From Spirochaetales bacterium Spiro_03 (GTDB lineage: Bacteria > Spirochaetota > Spirochaetia > Sphaerochaetales > Sphaerochaetaceae): a stretch of 42,785 bases of DNA. The notes below the pieces were generated by a model. The model ran no database searches. It worked only from the letters and a program-made list of their open reading frames with translations, and was not told the DNA's origin. The position numbers were made by a program, and so were the translations under genes. Below, piece by piece: positions 3,074-14,571 of this stretch. The stretch is from the NCBI GenBank assembly GCA_001603105.1, contig LVBE01000085.1:1-42785 (forward strand), given 5' to 3'. Position 1 is the first letter of the stretch; each line of letters opens with the position of its first letter.

Positions 3074-3349
3074 ATGGAGTACTTGACCATTGGGCAGGCC
3101 ATCAAGGCCTTGAGACAAGAGCGGGCGATGACCCAAGAGCACCTGATCGAGCAGGCGGACCTGAGCCGCAGCCAGCTCTACTACATCGAAAGCGGGAAAA
3201 AATCCCCCAGCCTTCCAACGATCTACGCGATCTGTTCGGCGCTGGGGGTCTCATTCTATGACCTGGTCTCAACGATGTACCGCCCCCCTCAGGGTTCGGG
3301 CACACCGAGCATCTCGTCGATCGGGGCTCCGGGGGCGACCATCGGATAG
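3074..3349 (+). CDS. Small XRE-family helix-turn-helix regulator
   Basis: The product is a Cro/CI-type DNA-binding domain: 'IGQAIKALRQERAMTQEHL' is helices 1-2 and 'LSRSQLYYIESGKKSPSLPT' the recognition part, ending 'LGVSFYDLV'. The ORF track starts at 3026, but the added 16 residues are outside the family fold; ATG 3074 is chosen, although neither start has a clear Shine-Dalgarno. The last roughly 20 residues are antisense to the 3' end of ilvB (61-base overlap), are low-complexity (G/S/P/I) and probably do not form part of the fold. It faces away from the rubrerythrin operon, so control of that operon is possible but unproven. Confidence 0.75.
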   Translation: MEYLTIGQAIKALRQERAMTQEHLIEQADLSRSQLYYIESGKKSPSLPTIYAICSALGVSFYDLVSTMYRPPQGSGTPSISSIGAPGATIG

Positions 3350-4965
3350 ACCTTGTCGTCCAACGGGATCTCGCAGTCGACCAGCACCGCCTCCCCAAGG
3401 GCCAGAGCTGAAGAGAGCACCGCCTTTGGATCGTCATCCTTGCCAAGGCGCATCCCCTTCACCCCGTAGGCAGCGGCGAGGGCGACCCAATCGATATAGG
3501 TATCAAGCGTCGTTTCACTGTAGTTGCCATCGAAGAAGAGGGTCTGCCACTGGCGTACCATCCCAAGCGTCTGGTTGTTCATCAACAGGATGATCACCGG
3601 AAGGCGATAGCGGGCGATGGTGGCAAGCTCATTGCAGTTCATTCTGAAGGAGCCGTCACCGGCTACGTTGACCACCCGGCTCTTCGGATTGCCTACCTGT
3701 GCCCCGATAGCCGCCCCGGTTCCGTAGCCCATCGTACCAAGCCCACCGCTGGTCAAAAAATGCCCCGGCTGCACGTGTTTGATGAACTGGGCCGCCCACA
3801 TCTGGTGTTGGCCTACCTCGGTGACGATGTAGAAGTTCTCAGGCAGCAGCGACTGCAGGGCCTTGAGGATCTCCTTGCTGCGGGCGCTCTCGTTGTCGAC
3901 CCTGATCGGATACCGACGCTTGTAGTCGGCGACCTGCTCCATCCAGCGCGCGTGGGAGAGCGGGCTCTTCAACTGTTCATTGAGAGATGAGAGGACGACC
4001 TTCACGTCGCCGACGACGTTGCAGTAGCTTTTGATGTTCTTGTCGATCTCAGCGGGATCGACATCGATGTGGATGATCTTGGCGTTCTTGGCAAATGAGG
4101 AGGCCTTGCTCACCACCCGGTCGCTGAAGCGCGCCCCGATGACTATCAAGAGGTCGCACGCCGAGACGAGCATGTTGCTGACCTTGGTGCCATGCATCCC
4201 CACCAGCCCGGTATACCGTTCATCGAGGCTGCTGATCGCCCCACAGCCCATCAGGGAGGTACAGGCAGGGCTATCGATGAGGTTGAGGAAGAGGGCAAGC
4301 TCCTCGCTCGCCTTCGCCCTGATGACGCCGCCTCCGACGTAGCACATCGGCCGCTCACTGCCCTTGATCAGGGCGAGGGCGGTCTCCAGGCTCTTGGTGC
4401 TGAGTCGATCGATGCGTGGTTTGACCTGCTCAATCTCGACTCGTTCATAGTCGGTGGTGTGGACGGTGATGTCCTTGGGCAGGTCGATGAGTACCGGCCC
4501 GGGCCTCCCCTCCTGGGCGATCTTGAAGGCTAGGCGCATCGTCTCGGCGAGCGTGGTGACATCCTTGACGATGAAGTTGTGCTTGGTGATCGGCATCGTG
4601 ATGCCGGTGATGTCGACCTCCTGAAAGCTATCCTTCCCAAGCAAAGGGACGGTCACATTGCCGGTAAGGGCGACCATCGGCACGCTGTCCATGTAGGCGG
4701 TGGCGATGCCGGTCACCAGGTTCGTCGCCCCCGGCCCACTGGTAGCCATACAGACGCCGACCTTGCCGGTCGAGCGTGCATAGCCATCGGCAGCGTGGGA
4801 TGCGCCCTGCTCGTGGCTGGTCAGGATGTGGCGGATCCGGTCCCGGTTCTGGTAGAGAGCGTCGTAGAGTGGCAGCACTGCACCTCCTGGAAACCCAAAG
4901 ACCGTATCGACTCCCTGTTCAACCAAACACTCTATGATGATCTGTGCTCCACTGATGTGCATCAT
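3289..4965 (-). CDS. ilvB: Acetolactate synthase large (catalytic) subunit
   Basis: This TPP-dependent enzyme condenses two pyruvates to acetolactate (valine/leucine branch), or pyruvate with 2-oxobutyrate to acetohydroxybutyrate (isoleucine). Visible features are 'VFGFPGGAVLPLYDAL', the TPP glutamate in 'TSHEQGA', 'GPGATNLVTG', and the C-terminal TPP/Mg motif 'GDGSFRMNCNELAT...NN'. At 558 residues it has normal length. The track extends to 5082, but that part overlaps ilvD; the ATG at 4965 has AAGGAG just upstream and lies 10 bases after the ilvD stop. It is the last gene of the operon, while its regulatory subunit ilvN is the first, an unusual separation. It overlaps the convergent XRE gene by 61 bases. 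Confidence 0.97.
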   Translation of the reverse strand: MMHISGAQIIIECLVEQGVDTVFGFPGGAVLPLYDALYQNRDRIRHILTSHEQGASHAADGYARSTGKVGVCMATSGPGATNLVTGIATAYMDSVPMVALTGNVTVPLLGKDSFQEVDITGITMPITKHNFIVKDVTTLAETMRLAFKIAQEGRPGPVLIDLPKDITVHTTDYERVEIEQVKPRIDRLSTKSLETALALIKGSERPMCYVGGGVIRAKASEELALFLNLIDSPACTSLMGCGAISSLDERYTGLVGMHGTKVSNMLVSACDLLIVIGARFSDRVVSKASSFAKNAKIIHIDVDPAEIDKNIKSYCNVVGDVKVVLSSLNEQLKSPLSHARWMEQVADYKRRYPIRVDNESARSKEILKALQSLLPENFYIVTEVGQHQMWAAQFIKHVQPGHFLTSGGLGTMGYGTGAAIGAQVGNPKSRVVNVAGDGSFRMNCNELATIARYRLPVIILLMNNQTLGMVRQWQTLFFDGNYSETTLDTYIDWVALAAAYGVKGMRLGKDDDPKAVLSSALALGEAVLVDCEIPLDDKVYPMVAPGAPIDEMLGVPEP

Positions 4966-4975
4966 GGTCTCCTTC

Positions 4976-6664
4976 TTATCGATTCTCCACGATCGCTCCG
5001 CTGGCAGCGCTGGAGACTGCCCTGGCGTAGCGAGCGAGGTAGCCGTGTTCAATCTTGCTCTTCGGCGCCTTCCATGCCGCACGGCGCTTCTTCAGCGTCG
5101 CCTCATCGACGAGCAAGTCGATCGTCCGATTCGGGATATCGATGGTGATCAAATCCCCTTCTTCAACGAGGGCGATCGGCCCTCCTTCGGCGGCCTCGGG
5201 GCTGATGTGGCCGATCGAGGCACCACGGGTCGCTCCACTGAAGCGGCCGTCGGTGATCAGGGCGACATCCTTGTCGAGCCCCATACCGGCGATTGCGCTG
5301 GTGGGGGCGAGCATCTCTGGCATCCCCGGCCCTCCCTTCGGCCCCTCATAGCGAATCACAACCACATCCCCTGCCTTAATCGAGCCAGAGAAGATTGCCT
5401 CGTTGGCCTGATCCTCGCTTTCGAAGACCCGTGCCGGACCGGTGTGGACCAGCATTGCCTCATCGACGGCGCTCTGTTTGACCACCGCCCCATCGGGGGC
5501 GAGGTTGCCCCTCAGCACCGCGATCCCGCCGGTCTTCGAATAGGGGTCCGAAAGGGGGCGGATGACCGCTTGGTCGGTCACCGCCTTGTCCATGCACAGC
5601 TCTGCCACACTCTTGAGACTGACAGTGGGAAGGCTCGCATCGATGAGACCTGAGCGGGCTAGAAGTCCGAGCACCGCCTGGATGCCGCCTGCGTGGTGCA
5701 AGTCCTCGAGGTGGTGCTCCCCTGCAGGGGCGAGGTGGCAGAGGTTGGGGACCTTTGCACTGACCTCATTGGCCTCGAAGATATCGATGCTCACTCCTGC
5801 CTCATGGGCGATCGCCGGCAGGTGCAACATCGTATTGGTCGAGCAGCCCAAGGCCATGTCGACAGCCAGGGCGTTGGCGAAGGCAGCCTTGGTCATGATG
5901 TCCCGTGGCCGTACATTGGCGCGCAGCAGCTCCATGACCTGGTAGCCGGCCTCCTTGGCCAAGCGGATGCGGGCGCTGTAGACAGCCGGGATCGTCCCAT
6001 TGCCAGGCAGGCCCATCCCGATCGCCTCGGTGAGGCAGTTCATGCTATTGGCCGTGTACATGCCGCTGCACGATCCGCAGGTCGGGCAGGCGTTGTCCTC
6101 GTAGGCCAACAGCTGCTCGTCGCTGATCAGGCCAGCGCTGTGGGAGCCGACCTTCTCGAACATCACCGAGAGGTTGGTCTTGCACCCACCCTCTGAGTCC
6201 ATCGTGCCGGCGAGCATCGGCCCGCCGCTGACAAAGATCGAGGGGATGTTCAGCCGGGCGGCTGCCATGAGCATCCCCGGAACGATCTTGTCGCAGTTGG
6301 GGACGAAGACCAGGGCATCGAAGGGGTGTGCCATCGCCATGATCTCGATCGAATCGGCGATGATCTCGCGGCTGGGCAGGCTGTAGCGCATACCCAGATG
6401 TCCCATGGCGATGCCGTCACAGACCCCGATGACAGGGAAGGAGACCGGATTCCCTCCTGCCTGCCTCACCCCTGCCTTCACTGCATCGACGATTGTATCG
6501 AGGTGGATGTGGCCAGGAATGATCTCGTTGGCCCCACTTACAATGCCGATGATCGGCATGTGGATCTCCCGATCCGTCCAACCAAGCGCCTTCATCAGCG
6601 AGCGGTGGGGGCTGCGCTGCACCCCTTCGGTCATCGCACTCGATCGTCTCTTCATCTCATCCAT
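4976..6664 (-). CDS. ilvD: Dihydroxy-acid dehydratase
   Basis: This Fe-S dehydratase converts 2,3-dihydroxy-isovalerate and 2,3-dihydroxy-3-methylvalerate to the corresponding 2-oxo acids, the penultimate step of valine and isoleucine synthesis. Cluster ligands are seen in 'PNCDKIVPG' and '[17 protein letters not shown]', followed by '[10 protein letters not shown]', and near the C-terminus '[12 protein letters not shown]' and 'GHISPEA'. The track starts at GTG 6670, but AGGAG abuts that codon, so the ATG two codons in (6664, 7-base spacing) is preferred, giving 562 residues. It lies 17 bases after leuB and 10 bases before ilvB. Confidence 0.97.
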
Positions 6665-6681
6665 ATCCACACTCCTATCTC

Positions 6682-7740
6682 CTACAGGGCTTGGGCGATC
6701 CGCTGGCCCATCTCCTTGGTCCCGACCTTGATCATCGACTCTGAGTAGATATCAACGGTCCGATACCCTTGGTCGAGTACTGCTTCGATGGCCGCCTCCA
6801 CTGCCTGCGCCTCACCCTCCATGCCGAAGCTGTGGCGCAGCATCATCGCCACCGACAAGATCATGGCGATCGGGTTGGCCAAATCCTTGCCGGCGATGTC
6901 GGGAGCGCTGCCGTGGATCGGCTCATACATGCCAAACGAATCCTCCCTCAGGCTCGCTGAGGGCAACATCCCGATCGAGCCGGTGATCTGGCTCGCCTCA
7001 TCGCTGAGGATGTCACCGAACATGTTCTCGGTGACGATCACATCGAACTGGCGGGGATTGCGCACCAGCTGCATCGCCGCGTTGTCGACGTACAGGTGGG
7101 TCAGCTCAACATCGGGATACTCGGCGCACAGGGCGTTGGCCACCGCTCGCCACAGTTGGCTGGAGGAGAGGATGTTCGCCTTGTCGACGCTACACAGGCG
7201 CCGAGAGCGCTTCTGGGCGATCTCAAAGCCTTTGCGCAGGATCCGCTCAATCTCCGCCCGTGTATAGCTCATCGTATCGTATGCGCTCTCTTCATCACTG
7301 CCGCGTGCACCGAAGTAGATGCCGCCGGTGAGCTCACGCACCACCATGATGTCCAGCTGCTCACCGACGACCTCTGCCTTCAGGGGGCAGGCGCCGCTGA
7401 GCTGCTTGTACATGATCGCCGGCCTGAGGTTGCAGAAGAGGCCGAGCCCTCCTCTGAGGCCGAGCAGTCCCTTCTCCGGTCGCAGGTGCGACGGCAGCGT
7501 ATCCCACTTCGGTCCGCCGAGGGAGCCGAGCAGGACCGCATCACTGTCTTGACAGCCTTTGAGGGTACTGTCCGGCAGCGGGGTATTGTAGGCATCAAGG
7601 GCAGCTCCGCCTGCAAGGTACTCGACGATCTCAAAGTCGTGGCCAAAGCGCTCTGCCACCCGCTTGAGCACCTTCACCGCCTCGAAGGTGATATCCGGAC
7701 CGATCCCGTCTCCACTGATGACCGCGATGCGCTTCTTCAT
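6682..7740 (-). CDS. leuB: 3-isopropylmalate dehydrogenase
   Basis: This NAD-dependent oxidative decarboxylase converts 3-isopropylmalate to 2-oxoisocaproate. With citramalate-derived 3-methylmalate the same enzyme type yields 2-oxobutyrate. Seen are '[11 protein letters not shown]' at the N-terminus, the substrate-binding arginines in '[17 protein letters not shown]', '[10 protein letters not shown]', and the metal-binding '[14 protein letters not shown]'. '[14 protein letters not shown]' is the NAD-binding signature. The start is ATG 7740 with AAGGAGG upstream; the track's GTG 7743 is one codon earlier. The ATG overlaps the leuD stop (TGATG). Length of 352 is normal. Confidence 0.97.
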
Positions 7741-8234
7741 CACACACCCTCCTTCTGTGCCATATAGGCAGCAAGGCCGCCTGCAGCGATGAGCTCTTGC
7801 ATGAAGGGCGGGAAGGGTTCGCTTTGAAAGACCTGGGAGGTGGTCATATTGGTGATCGTGCCACTGTCAAAGTCAACTTGGACGCGGTCCCCTGCCTTGA
7901 TGGAAGCCGCTGCCTCTTCGCACTCAAGGATCGGCAGGCCGATGTTGATCGCATTGCGATAGAAGATCCGGGCGAATGAGCGGGCGATGACGCAGCTGAC
8001 GCCGCTCTCCTTGATGGCGATGGGGGCGTGCTCGCGGCTGGAGCCACAGCCGAAGTTCCGGTCGGCGACAATGATGTCACCCTTCTGCACCGTTTTGACG
8101 AACTGGCTGTCGATATCCTCCATGCAGTGAGCGGCGAGCTCTGCGTGGTTGGCGGTATTGAGGTACCGCGCCGGAATGATGACGTCGGTGTCGACGTTGT
8201 CCCCGTATCTGAAAACACTTCCTTCTGCTACCAT
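7740..8234 (-). CDS. leuD: 3-isopropylmalate dehydratase small subunit, short type
   Basis: This is the swivel domain of isopropylmalate isomerase. Motifs are '[19 protein letters not shown]', '[14 protein letters not shown]' (active-site loop) and '[17 protein letters not shown]'. At 164 residues it is the short, archaeal/LeuD2-like form, matching the short LeuC. The track start at 8285 would run into leuC; the ATG at 8234 is chosen because GGAGG lies upstream inside the leuC end and only one base separates it from the leuC stop. With LeuC it isomerises 2- to 3-isopropylmalate, and probably also citramalate to 3-methylmalate, since cimA is in the operon. Confidence 0.95.
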
Positions 8235-8235
8235 G

Positions 8236-9504
8236 CTAGGCCTCCATGACGTTCTTGGGATCTGCGATATAGCCGGCCACGGCACTGGCGGCGGCTACCG
8301 AGGGGCTGGCGAGGTAGACCTCGCTTTTCGGGTGGCCCATACGTCCGACAAAGTTGCGGTTGGTGGTGCTCACCGCCCGCTCCCCTTCGGCGAGGATTCC
8401 CATGTGCCCACCCAGGCACGGTCCACAGGTAGGGGTCGAGACGGCACAGCCGGCATCGACGAAGATATCGAAGAGTCCCTCGGCCATCGCCTGCTTCCAG
8501 ATCTTCTGCGTCGCCGGGAAGATCAGGGCCCGCACATGGGAGGCAACCTTGCGGCCCTTGAGAATCTGGGCAGCCTGACGTAGATCGTCGATGCGTCCGT
8601 TGGTGCAGGAGCCGATGACGACCTGGTCGATCCGGATCTCGCCCACCTCATCGATGGTACGGGTATTGGAGGGCAGGTGTGGGAAGCTGACGGTGCTCTT
8701 GATCGTCGACAGGTCGATCTCATACGTCGCATCATATTCGGCGTCGCTGTCCGCCTCATAGATGCGCACCTCTTTCTTGTAGTGTTCGTCCAGGTAGGCG
8801 AGAGTCACCGCATCGACGGGGAAGATCCCGTTCTTCGCCCCTGCCTCGATGGCCATGTTGGCGACGGTGAAGCGGTCGTCGATAGAGAGGTTCGCCACCC
8901 CCTTGCCGGTGAACTCCATGCTCGCATACAGCGCTCCATCGACACCGATCATGCCGATGATGTGCAAAATGAGGTCCTTGCCGCTGACGTAGGGACCGAA
9001 CGCTCCGCTGAGGTTGAACCGTATCGCGCTGGGAACTTTGAACCACGCCGTGCCGCTGGCCATGCCTGCGGCCATGTCGGTGGAGCCGACACCGGTTGAG
9101 AAGGCGCCAAGCGCCCCGTAGGTGCAGGTGTGGCTATCGGCGCCGATGACCAGATCCCCGGCTCCGACGAGCCCCTGCTCTGGCAACAGGGCGTGCTCGA
9201 TGCCCATCTGTCCTACCTCAAAGTAGTTGGTGATCGCATGCTCGCGGGCAAAGGTACGCATCGCCTTCGCCTGTTCGGCCGCCTTGATGTCCTTGTTCGG
9301 AGTGAAGTGGTCGGGCACGAGGGCGACCTTCTCCTTGTCAAAGACCGTCTTCTTGCCAAACTTGGCAAACTCATTGATGGCTACCGGGGCGGTGATGTCG
9401 TTTCCGAGCACCAAATCCAGATCGGCCATGATCAACTGGCCGGCCCGCACGCTCTCAAGGCCTGCGTGCGCTGCCAGGATCTTCTGTGACATAGTCATTC
9501 CCAT
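8236..9504 (-). CDS. leuC: 3-isopropylmalate dehydratase large subunit, short type
   Basis: This aconitase-family 4Fe-4S protein is the partner of LeuD. Cluster-binding cysteines are seen in 'IGSCTNGR' and '[14 protein letters not shown]'; '[22 protein letters not shown]' and '[11 protein letters not shown]' are further family signatures. At 422 residues it belongs to the short (LeuC2/homoaconitase-like) type rather than the roughly 466-residue enterobacterial type. This type is associated with broader substrates, consistent with a double role in leucine and citramalate-derived isoleucine synthesis (inference). The start ATG 9504 has GAGAGGAG about 7 bases upstream. It lies 15 bases after cimA. 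Confidence 0.96.
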
Positions 9505-9519
9505 GGGGCAACTCCTCTC

Positions 9520-11112
9520 TCATTCATCGGACGGCTCGATGCCGTCGGCTATCAACTTATACTCGATGCTATCACTTAAGGCAAACCAGCTCGCCTCGAT
9601 GATGTCCCGGCTCACCCCGATCGTCGACCAGGTGTTGACCCCGTCGGTCGATTCGATGAGGACACGGACCTTGCTCGCCGTAGCTCCTGCGCTGTCCAGC
9701 ACCCGCACCTTGTAGTCGGTCAGGTGTACGCTCTTCAGACTCGGGTAGAACTGCTCCAATACCTTGCGCAGCGCCTTGTCCAGTGCGTTGACCGGCCCCT
9801 CTCCCTCAGCGGCGGTGATGGCGCTCTCTCCGGCGACCTTGACCTTGACCACCACGGCGTGGCTGGCATCGCTGAGCAAGTCGACATACGGGCTCGATCC
9901 GATGGTCTGGTAGTGCACAAGGCTGAAGTACGGCTTGTACATGTTCAGGTGTCGACGGATGACCAGGTCAAAGGAGGATTCAGCACCCTCGAACTGGTAG
10001 CCCTCAGCCTCAAGGCGCTTGAGCTCATCCATCAGGCTGACGGTCACCGGGTCATCCTTGTCCAGGTGCGGGGCGACGCGGGCGATGCGCTTGAGCATCA
10101 AGGCGCGCCCGGCGACTTCGCTCATCAATAGCCGCCGTTCATTGCCGACCGTCGCCGGATCGATATGTTCGAACGAGTGGGGATTCTTCTGCACCCCATC
10201 GATGTGCATCCCGCCCTTGTGGGCAAAGGCGCTGCGCCCGACAAATGGGGTGCGCCCGCTGATGCGCACATTGCTGATCTCAGCGACCTTGCGGCTGATG
10301 CGCGTCAACTGCTCCAAGTTTTCGCCATTGAGGCAGCGTATGCCCATCTTCGTCTCAAGGATTGCGATGATCGAACTGAGGTTGGCGTTGCCGCAGCGCT
10401 CTCCGAAGCCGAGCAGCGTCCCCTGCACCTGTGTCGCCCCACCCTCGATCGCCGCGATCGAGGAGGCGACGCCGCAGCCGATGTCGTCGTGGGCATGCAC
10501 CCCGATCTCGACGGAGGGAAAGCGCCTCTTCGTCTCTTCGGTGATCGCCCGTACCCGGCTCGGGAGCATCCCCCCCCTCGTCTCACAGAGGATCAGGGCA
10601 GAAGCGCCACCTCTCAATGCCGCCTCAAGTGTCTTGAGGGCGTAGTCAGCGTTTGCCTCGTAGCCATCGTAGTAGTGCTCGGCATCGAAGAAGACTGCGC
10701 TGCCACCTTGTGTGATGAAGCGCACCGAATCCTCGATCATCGCCAAGTTCTCCTCAAGCGTCGTCTTGATGATGTCGGTGACGTGAAAGTCCCAGCTCTT
10801 GCCGAAGATCGATACGACCTTCGTTTGGGCCTTGGTGAGGCTGATGAGGTTGGCGTCCTCGCTCGCCTCGATCCCTTTGCGCCGTGTCGAGCCGAAGGCT
10901 ACGATCGTAGCGTGCTTCAGCTCTAGGCGCTTGGCCTCCTCGAAGAACTCAAGGTCCTTGGGGTTTGAGCCCGGGTTTCCGGCCTCGATGTAGGAGATGC
11001 CCAGACTATCGAGGCTCTGGACGATCTTCAGCTTGTCGGAGACCGAGAAGCTGATACCCTCGCCCTGGCTGCCATCGCGCAGTGTTGAGTCAAAGATCGC
11101 GACCCTAGCCAT
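9520..11112 (-). CDS. cimA: (R)-citramalate synthase
   Basis: This DRE-TIM metallolyase condenses acetyl-CoA with pyruvate to give citramalate, the first step of the threonine-independent isoleucine route. It starts 'MARVAIFDSTLRDGSQGEG', where the SQGEG variant is typical of CimA; LeuA here has EQAPG. Further features are metal-binding 'GVHAHDDIGCGVA', 'LGFGERCGNANL', and 'FAHKGGMHIDGV' where LeuA has 'FAHESGIHQHG'. The C-terminal LeuA-dimer regulatory domain follows from about residue 380. The ATG at 11112 has AGGAGG 6 bases upstream; the track start at 11163 lies inside leuA. Its first 8 bases overlap the leuA end. Length 530 fits the family. Confidence 0.92.
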   Translation of the reverse strand: MARVAIFDSTLRDGSQGEGISFSVSDKLKIVQSLDSLGISYIEAGNPGSNPKDLEFFEEAKRLELKHATIVAFGSTRRKGIEASEDANLISLTKAQTKVVSIFGKSWDFHVTDIIKTTLEENLAMIEDSVRFITQGGSAVFFDAEHYYDGYEANADYALKTLEAALRGGASALILCETRGGMLPSRVRAITEETKRRFPSVEIGVHAHDDIGCGVASSIAAIEGGATQVQGTLLGFGERCGNANLSSIIAILETKMGIRCLNGENLEQLTRISRKVAEISNVRISGRTPFVGRSAFAHKGGMHIDGVQKNPHSFEHIDPATVGNERRLLMSEVAGRALMLKRIARVAPHLDKDDPVTVSLMDELKRLEAEGYQFEGAESSFDLVIRRHLNMYKPYFSLVHYQTIGSSPYVDLLSDASHAVVVKVKVAGESAITAAEGEGPVNALDKALRKVLEQFYPSLKSVHLTDYKVRVLDSAGATASKVRVLIESTDGVNTWSTIGVSRDIIEASWFALSDSIEYKLIADGIEPSDE

Positions 11113-12718
11113 CGATGGCCTCCTTCTTCTTGTCGGAGTGGGAACTGAGCATGTCATTTGCAAAATTCGGAGCCGATGTCGGTTTCACTGAACCGCTACG
11201 GGAGAGCGAGGCCTCGTCGAGCATCCGGTTCACAGCGGCAAGGCAGCTGAGGATCGAGGCTTCGATGACATCGGTCGACACACCCCGGCCACGGTAGATG
11301 CCGTGCCCGTCGCTGATCTTCACAAAGACCTCTCCGAGTGCGTCGCGATGCTCGGTCACCGCCTGCAGTGTGTAATCCTCCAAGCTGAAGGGGTGGCGGA
11401 TGATCTTCTCCACTGCCCTGAGGCTTGCGTAGACCGGCCCGGTGCCACGCGCGACCTCCTGGTACTTCTTATCGCCCTTGCGCAGCGTCACGCACGCGGT
11501 CGAGGTCATCAGGTTGCCGCTGTTGACGACGAAGTTGTCCAGCTCCCAAACCACCGGGGAGGTTTGGGTGGTGCTCTCCACCAAGGCGATGAGGTCGCGG
11601 TCGCCGACGGTTTTCTTGCGGTCAGCGAGGTTCTTGAACTCAGCAAAGAGGCTCTTCACCTCCTCCTTGGTCAGTGTGTAGCCAAGCTCGACAAGCCGCT
11701 TCTCAAAGGCGTGCATCCCGCTATGCTTGCCCAGCACGAAGCTGGTGGTCATCACCCCAACACTCTCGGGGGTCATGATCTCATAGGTGAGGCTGTTGGC
11801 CATCATGCCGTGCTGGTGGATCCCACTCTCATGGGCGAAGGCGTTCGCTCCGACGATCGCCTTGCTCGGATTGGCCTTGATGCCGGTGATCTGGCCCAAG
11901 AGCCGGGCACTTTTGGTGATCTCCTCGGTCTTCAGCGCATAGGTAAAGGGCAGTTCGTCGCTTCGGGTCCGGATGGCCATCGCCACCTCCTCGATAGCGG
12001 CGTTGCCTGCCCGCTCTCCGATGCCGCAGAGCGTGCCCTCGATCTGCCGAGCTCCGGCTTTCAGCCCGGCGAGGCTGTTGGCCACCGCAAGGCCCAAGTC
12101 GTTGTGACAGTGCACCGCGATGATCGCCCGGTCGATGTTCGCCACCCGCTTCATCACCGTCCCCACCATCCGCTTCATGTCCTCAGGCAGGGCGTAGCCG
12201 ACGGTATCGGGCAGGTTGACGACACTCGCCCCCGCGTCGATGACTGCCTCAACCACCTCACAGAGGAAGTCCAAGTCGGTTCGGGTGGCATCCTCTGCCG
12301 AGAACTCCACCTCACCGCAGAGATTGCGCGCATAGCGCACCATCTCTGTCGCTTGCATAAGCGCCTGCGACCGGCTCATCTTCAGCTTATACTGCAAGTG
12401 TAGGTCACTGGTGGCCAAAAAGGTGTGGATCCGAGGGCGCTTGGCTCCCTTCACCGCTTGCCATGCTGCGTCAATGTCCTTCTTCAGCGCCCGTGAGAGG
12501 CTGGCCACCGCCGTCTCCTTCAGGATAGCGGCAATGGCCTGGACGGAGGAGAAATCCCCCTCAGATGCTATGGCAAAGCCTGCCTCCAGCACATCCACGC
12601 CGAGGGCTTCAAGCTGTAGGGCCATGCGAACTTTCTCATCGAGGTTCATTGAGTAGCCCGGTGCCTGCTCGCCATCACGCAGCGTGGTGTCAAAGATGTA
12701 GATCCTGTTCTCTTCCAT
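11105..12718 (-). CDS. leuA: 2-isopropylmalate synthase
   Basis: This is the first committed enzyme of leucine synthesis, condensing acetyl-CoA with 2-oxoisovalerate. Seen are 'IFDTTLRDGEQAPGYSMN' (catalytic Arg/Asp), 'VHCHNDLGLAVANSLAG' (metal histidines), 'GIGERAGNAAIEEV' and 'NAFAHESGIHQHGMM'. The C-terminal regulatory LeuA dimer domain ends with a Ser/Lys-rich tail 'SSHSDKKKEAIDG'. The track start is ATG 12724; ATG 12718 is slightly better spaced from GGGGGG. The product is 537 residues. It lies about 20 bases after ilvC and overlaps cimA by 8 bases. Confidence 0.95.
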   Translation of the reverse strand: MEENRIYIFDTTLRDGEQAPGYSMNLDEKVRMALQLEALGVDVLEAGFAIASEGDFSSVQAIAAILKETAVASLSRALKKDIDAAWQAVKGAKRPRIHTFLATSDLHLQYKLKMSRSQALMQATEMVRYARNLCGEVEFSAEDATRTDLDFLCEVVEAVIDAGASVVNLPDTVGYALPEDMKRMVGTVMKRVANIDRAIIAVHCHNDLGLAVANSLAGLKAGARQIEGTLCGIGERAGNAAIEEVAMAIRTRSDELPFTYALKTEEITKSARLLGQITGIKANPSKAIVGANAFAHESGIHQHGMMANSLTYEIMTPESVGVMTTSFVLGKHSGMHAFEKRLVELGYTLTKEEVKSLFAEFKNLADRKKTVGDRDLIALVESTTQTSPVVWELDNFVVNSGNLMTSTACVTLRKGDKKYQEVARGTGPVYASLRAVEKIIRHPFSLEDYTLQAVTEHRDALGEVFVKISDGHGIYRGRGVSTDVIEASILSCLAAVNRMLDEASLSRSGSVKPTSAPNFANDMLSSHSDKKKEAIDG

Positions 12719-12738
12719 AGTCATCCCCCCATCGGTGG

Positions 12739-14297
<1,559 letters not shown>

Positions 14298-14320
14298 CGT
14301 AATTGTCCGCTCCTTTGGGT

Positions 14321-14387
14321 ATAAGAATAAGAACCCCGGTATCGGGGAACTTGTACCACGGCCCATGTAGGTATACTACAGCCGTGG
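14321..14387 (-). terminator. Attenuator hairpins (antiterminator and terminator) of the ilv-leu operon
   Basis: Read on the minus strand, directly after the leader peptide stop, CCACGGC (14387-14381) pairs with GCCGTGG (14362-14356), with an inner TGTAG/CTACA stem. The 3' arm CCGTGGTA (14360-14353) can instead pair with TACCGGGG (14341-14334): seven of eight positions including one U-G pair. That alternative hairpin, with a nested CCCCG/CGGGG stem, is followed by the U-rich TTCTTATTCTTAT. The two folds are mutually exclusive, as in segments 2:3 and 3:4 of classical attenuators. The stop codon abuts segment 2. The folding is by eye. Confidence 0.7.
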
Positions 14388-14504
14388 TCAGAGAATAATT
14401 AGAATAAGAAGGCTAAGTAGGCAGGAAAGCAGGATTGAGGATGCCGAGGTGATGATCCCTCTGGTCTCTGGTGTCTCTGTGGTGTAGGTGCTGGGCGCTC
14501 TCAC
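14388..14504 (-). CDS. Leu/Ile-rich leader peptide of the ilv-leu operon (attenuator ORF)
   Basis: This 38-codon ORF is below the length limit of the supplied track. It starts with GTG 14504, has GAGGAG 6 bases upstream (14516-14511), and ends with TGA at 14390-14388. The peptide reads VRAPSTYTTETPETRG then IITSASSILLSC and LLSLLILIIL. It contains 8 Leu and 6 Ile, and 9 of the last 10 residues are Leu or Ile. No Val codon follows the start. By analogy with enterobacterial IlvL/LeuL, ribosome stalling on this run during Leu or Ile shortage would allow an antiterminator to form. Promoter, SD, regulatory codons, stop and hairpins are all in the expected order. Confidence 0.8.
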   Translation of the reverse strand: MRAPSTYTTETPETRGIITSASSILLSCLLSLLILIIL

Positions 14505-14541
14505 AGTGCTCTCCTCAAGACGGTTCGACGACCGTTTCCTG

Positions 14542-14571
14542 TTTTTAGCCCTCTTTTACCCCTGTTGTCAA
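14542..14571 (-). promoter_or_regulatory. Promoter of the ilv-leu operon
   Basis: The minus strand shows a perfect -35 TTGACA (14571-14566), an 18-base spacer and a -10 TAAAAA (14547-14542). Transcription would begin near 14535, giving a leader of about 240 nucleotides that holds a small ACGGT/ACCGT hairpin, the leader peptide and the attenuator. The rest of the 14298-14747 gap between ilvN and the kinase holds only the kinase promoter candidate. Confidence 0.65.

Follow-up and report, generated by a model that had tools for sequence, protein, structure and literature searches.

Leader peptide and stop-codon hairpin suggest ribosome-mediated attenuation of a spirochaete branched-chain amino acid operon

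The window, that is, the whole stretch of DNA analysed (42,785 nt of contig LVBE01000085.1), in all likelihood contains the leader of a ribosome-mediated attenuator serving an entire branched-chain amino acid operon, a reading of the sequence to which we assign a probability of roughly 0.8. A mini-gene rich in Leu and Ile codons very probably allows the translating ribosome to sense a shortage of branched-chain amino acids, and a covarying hairpin begins at its stop codon. The leader and the operon lie entirely on the minus strand, and the genome groups with 25 others of one genus (26 in total). Comparison across the family indicates that the sensor is conserved and that the terminator side has diverged, having been rebuilt or lost in the genus of the window.

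A conserved Leu/Ile-rich leader before a nine-gene operon

The gene order ilvN-ilvC-leuA-cimA-leuC-leuD-leuB-ilvD-ilvB comprises nine genes that are exactly those of the Leu/Ile/Val pathway and that likely form one operon. It opens with ilvN, the acetolactate synthase small subunit (13770–14297; NF008864/TIGR00119), whose ATG at 14297 is preceded by the Shine-Dalgarno (SD) sequence AAAGGAG (14310–14316), and continues through ilvC, ketol-acid reductoisomerase (12739–13773; TIGR00465), leuA, 2-isopropylmalate synthase (11105–12724; TIGR00973), cimA, citramalate synthase (9520–11163; TIGR00977), leuC (8236–9504; TIGR02083), leuD (7740–8285; TIGR02084), leuB (6682–7743; TIGR00169) and ilvD (4976–6670; TIGR00110) to ilvB (3289–5082; TIGR00118), the sole large subunit found in the genome. 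After ilvB the operon ends in a terminator with a strong U-tract, a long hairpin followed by AUUUUUUC (3196–3248).

Both the TTGACA box and the GAGGAG SD that a sequence-only reading had placed ahead of the leader are read directly on the minus strand. The −35 box (14566–14571) and its position are kept across the genus, where it lies in the invariant GGTTGACA of every aligned member. The probable −10 element TAAAAA (14542–14547, spacer 18; TACAAA or TACAAC in relatives) is poor and falls under the threshold of a consensus promoter scan, which called no promoter in the leader region. The SD (14511–14516) is also kept in the alignment. Directly before it lies a hairpin, ACGGT-CGTCGA-ACCGT (14520–14535), whose arms, by eye, seem to change together among relatives (AACGGC/GCCGUU, AACAGC/GCUGUU).

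The leader ORF, MRAPSTYTTETPETRGIITSASSILLSCLLSLLILIIL, extends from GTG at 14504 to TGA at 14388 (14388–14504), and proved to be the 38-codon frame with a Leu/Ile-rich end that had been claimed for it. It holds eight Leu and six Ile codons and no internal Val codon, and Leu or Ile occupies 12 of its final 15 codons. Among the 1354 stops in the window preceded by 15 open codons, it is the only one with at least 10 L/I/V in the last 15, so the run exceeds what chance would provide. Across relatives the leader frame has a pN/pS of 0.30, whereas the two alternative frames reach 2.45 and 5.47; those two also contain 230 stop-bearing codon pairs, and the leader frame has none. By these comparisons the leader frame is under coding selection. 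Leader codon usage is also distinctive: CUA makes up 19–30% of Leu codons in leaders versus 1–3% in ilvN, CUG is avoided, and GUA accounts for 76–89% of Val codons in long leaders. In the window itself CUA is used for two of the eight leader Leu codons, whereas the operon uses it for 8 of 316 (p 0.02). Rare control codons are known from classical attenuators as well.

Conservation of the short Leu/Ile-rich ORF, proposed earlier as a check, is borne out by a frame-selected leader that lies upstream of ilvN at 66 of the 68 loci collected from the family; every one of the 23 same-genus genomes with ilvN has it. These loci comprise 49 collected first, all with a leader (two assigned by eye), and 19 further ones, 17 with a leader; one duplicate was excluded. 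The two exceptions, L128 (G476) and L135 (G441), are family members with ilvN and no recognisable leader upstream. Leader lengths range from 18 to 76 codons (L055 is perhaps longer, its start being uncertain), most sister-genus leaders have 18–30 residues, and the tails throughout the family are nearly pure L/I/V plus S, P and T. The expectation that the leader senses Leu and Ile only, for want of Val codons, agrees with the sequence of the window but does not carry over to its relatives, since the nearest, L003, has three Val codons in its leader and GUA GUA occurs close to the leader end in most of the genus; by this comparison the restriction to Leu and Ile is a feature of the one species.

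Long leaders, such as those of L004, L006 and L015, have a non-branched-chain N-terminal half with pN/pS of 0.19 versus 0.44 in the half that holds the control codons. A strict tie between long leaders (55 or more codons) and absence of a U-tract was perfect in the first 49 loci and failed when more were added, with L121, L123 and L124, whose leaders of about 40 codons have no U-tract terminator, as counter-examples; on the tree, long leaders and the lack of a U-tract require at least two changes.

A covarying hairpin at the stop codon and a divergent terminator side

Folding and covariation identify an antiterminator-like hairpin, A:B, of the form ACCACGGC-UGUAG...CUACA-UGG-GCCGUGGU (14355–14388). 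Its fold is worth −17.7 kcal/mol (z −4.4 versus shuffles). The first base of strand A is the last base of the leader stop codon (14388), in keeping with the abutting stop codon of the sequence-only reading, and across the family loci strand A lies at the stop codon or a few bases from it. Covarying stems, the second check proposed there, were found for A:B: over 14 genus sequences 99.4% of cells are paired, five pairs are altered on both sides, and none of 500 shuffles equalled the covariation score. A ribosome with a footprint of the usual size, positioned at the stop codon, could mask one strand of A:B.

Seven bases past A:B a terminator scan places a second hairpin, CCCCG-AUAC-CGGGG (14347–14334), which with its U-rich tail UUCUUAUUCUUAU forms a candidate intrinsic terminator (14321–14347). 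The stem is GC-only with a 5 bp core and about −11.2 to −11.5 kcal/mol. A separate hairpin with a U-tract is present in four of the 23 genus members (the window, L003, L022 and L023) and absent in the other 19. The mutually exclusive 2:3 and 3:4 stems originally proposed find no support in the window or in the genus. In the window, A:B and the second hairpin share no bases and can form together, and pairing of strand B with an arm of the second hairpin needs a mismatch and G-U pairs, giving −9.1 versus −11.5 kcal/mol for the local hairpin; this alternative pairing does not exceed that of shuffled sequence (p 0.11) and is not conserved. Across the genus a search for a downstream partner of strand B yielded nothing beyond shuffles (median z 0.03), and folding the leaders with strand A masked revealed no common alternative structure. 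The description as a classical attenuator of the IlvL/LeuL type thus stands as far as the conserved, translatable Leu/Ile(/Val) leader and the covarying hairpin are concerned, and lacks support for the exclusive stems in the window. Because mutual exclusivity was tested and coexistence was found there, we leave membership in the classical group unclaimed.

Just 5′ of the ilvN SD, at about 14323–14316 on the minus strand in the window, the motif UAUACCCA (or UAUAUCCA) is conserved in the genus, and it also occurs in some of the L123–L126 loci of another genus. As a partner of the UGG in strand B, UAUACCCA could offer only three to four pairs and was set aside.

The sister genera present a different arrangement on the terminator side. 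In all 20 loci of one set, a downstream arm C with U's after it pairs with strand B (CCGUGG and its flanks), with 87.6% of cells paired, and seven more sister-genus loci have U-tract terminators that use B. In these 27 loci the predicted pairings make A:B exclude B:C, which is a textbook switch. B:C pairing recurs in a third set (L025, L034, L043, L054, L055, L060 and some of L119–L136), where convincing U-tracts are mostly missing.

Proposed mechanism and alternative readouts

In the proposed mechanism, transcription would begin after TTGACA and a ribosome would start on the 38-codon leader ORF. Under a shortage of charged Leu- or Ile-tRNA, translation would stall within the Leu/Ile run before the ribosome arrives at strand A; with a ribosome footprint of the usual size, a stall at least about four codons ahead of the stop should leave A free to pair with B, and formation of the A:B hairpin would allow the operon to be expressed. 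When these amino acids are plentiful, the ribosome would reach the stop and cover A, so that A:B is blocked and the leader adopts its 'off' fold. The role of A:B as the 'on' hairpin is suggested by its geometry and by the sister genera. For the off state in the window, our best guess is termination at the CCCCG/CGGGG hairpin and its U-rich tail, most likely with moderate efficiency. The two hairpins share no bases, and sensor and terminator appear uncoupled in the genus of the window.

For the genus as a whole, a tentative reading, possible though short of probable, is that the leader sensor and A:B are kept under selection in most members, that the intrinsic terminator has been lost, and that the same ribosome signal is read otherwise, perhaps helped by the N-terminal half of the lengthened leaders, which is conserved. 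Such a non-classical readout might be Rho-dependent termination when A:B is open, or a direct effect of hairpins on the polymerase. Consistent with it, leader and A:B are conserved although those 19 of 23 genus members have no U-tract terminator, and Rho was found in 26 of 26 genus genomes; the window, however, has a candidate terminator of its own. The Leu/Ile/Val stretches of the leaders contain much C and little G (37% and 9%), as a Rho readout would favor, but sister genera with intrinsic terminators show this G-poor codon choice too, and so this bias is no pointer to Rho in particular.

Translational attenuation, in which the fed state would hide the ilvN SD and stalling would expose it, appears improbable. 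In the main clade the ilvN SD is modelled as largely paired (mean unpaired 0.22–0.24), and for the actinobacterial LEU element a run of Leu codons has been described as pairing with the SD (PMC1262725); however, modelled accessibility is the same in both ribosome states (0.24 stalled versus 0.23 with the ribosome at the stop codon), and we rejected SD sequestration as a general readout on this ground. Still harder to credit is that the ORF encodes a small membrane protein and not a regulatory leader peptide. Its C-terminal stretch of 20–30 residues is hydrophobic, and long leaders are under strong constraint in their N-terminal half (pN/pS 0.19), but the hydrophobic residues are almost solely L/I/V, with zero to three A/F/G/M/W in the last 30 positions in nearly all genus members, most sister-genus versions have 18–30 residues, the codons used tend to be rare ones, and the stop sits at the hairpin. 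Least credible of all is control by a riboswitch or T-box with an incidental ORF: both are established regulators of ilv operons in other bacteria (PMC10272879), but the ORF frame is under selection, the leader region of the window has no Rfam match at gathering score, and no relevant match, to a T-box or an ilv motif either, appeared in the window locus and five relatives at E up to 1.

Relation to known leaders and to other spirochaetes

Ribosome-mediated attenuation, preferred here for the window, would extend to a spirochaete family whose ilvN-first branched-chain operons almost all appear to have a leader-peptide attenuator. The E. coli leuL and ilvL leaders (leuABCD, ilvGMEDA) consist of an SD-preceded short ORF with codons for the pathway amino acids, rare control codons, and a stop positioned so that the ribosome can mask an antiterminator strand. 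The window leader resembles them in its SD, its ORF rich in pathway residues, its rare codons and its stop at a hairpin strand. Unlike them, three strands (A, B and C) suffice in the sister genera, strand B and the terminator of the window do not overlap, and we noticed no 1:2 pause hairpin within the coding run of the window. The Corynebacterium ilvB-II motif and C. glutamicum ilvBNC likewise combine an upstream ORF (uORF) rich in branched-chain residues with an antiterminator and an intrinsic terminator before an ilv operon, but the structures differ: in C. glutamicum the antiterminator hairpin overlaps that of the terminator, and the motif precedes ilvB where the window leader precedes ilvN (PMC10272879, PMC11857589). 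Actinobacterial cys operons, which have a conserved leader peptide and no obvious terminator, their authors suspecting Rho, share with the genus studied here the missing terminator part; those leaders carry Cys codons with no conserved hairpin reported, whereas the genus has the conserved A:B (PMC1262725).

The earlier suggestion that no such attenuator had been described for spirochaetes needs qualification. The Leptospira ilvB motif (PMC8632094) has been reinterpreted as a uORF rich in branched-chain residues, as a prediction only (PMC10272879); its seven representatives are rich in branched-chain and Thr codons and have at least three consecutive Val codons (PMC8632094, PMC10272879). It and the window leader are both spirochaete uORFs of this kind, the Leptospira one lying before ilvB, and the two are set apart by description. 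Attenuation in spirochaetes is thus not wholly new. In the literature searched, the Leptospira motif was the only other spirochaete uORF of this kind before ilv genes, and the literature found on leader peptides and transcription attenuation makes no mention of Sphaerochaeta.

Within one family, the loci form a graded series from a textbook switch, through a switch without a U-tract, to a sensor with an uncoupled second hairpin. The series makes testable what becomes of a translation-reading sensor once its terminator decays, and cultivated Sphaerochaeta species offer a possible test ground.

Among 40 loci of other spirochaete families scanned for similar leaders, which is not a fair survey since only 17 of them have ilvB upstream, L076 alone stood out (G431, family f24). 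It has a leader ORF rich in branched-chain residues, MFNLGSTAIILDSTLIISIIIVVLILARVVSCLSKVR, about 125 bases upstream of ilvB and followed by a U-tract terminator; AGCUGUUUG near the end of the leader exactly complements CAAACAGCU, which is part of the terminator, and from its sequence the locus looks like an independent attenuator. Upstream of ilvN, L027 (G038, family f4) carries a leader of roughly 84 codons that ends in a long tail rich in L/I/V, and the ilvN SD there is directly preceded by a U-tract. In a pattern scan of genome contigs, IlvN of the window shares 45–53% identity with proteins of Lachnospiraceae and other Clostridia (L035–L041) and about 40%, a lower figure, with those of many other spirochaete families. 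Given the similarity to Clostridia, lateral transfer of ilvN is possible.
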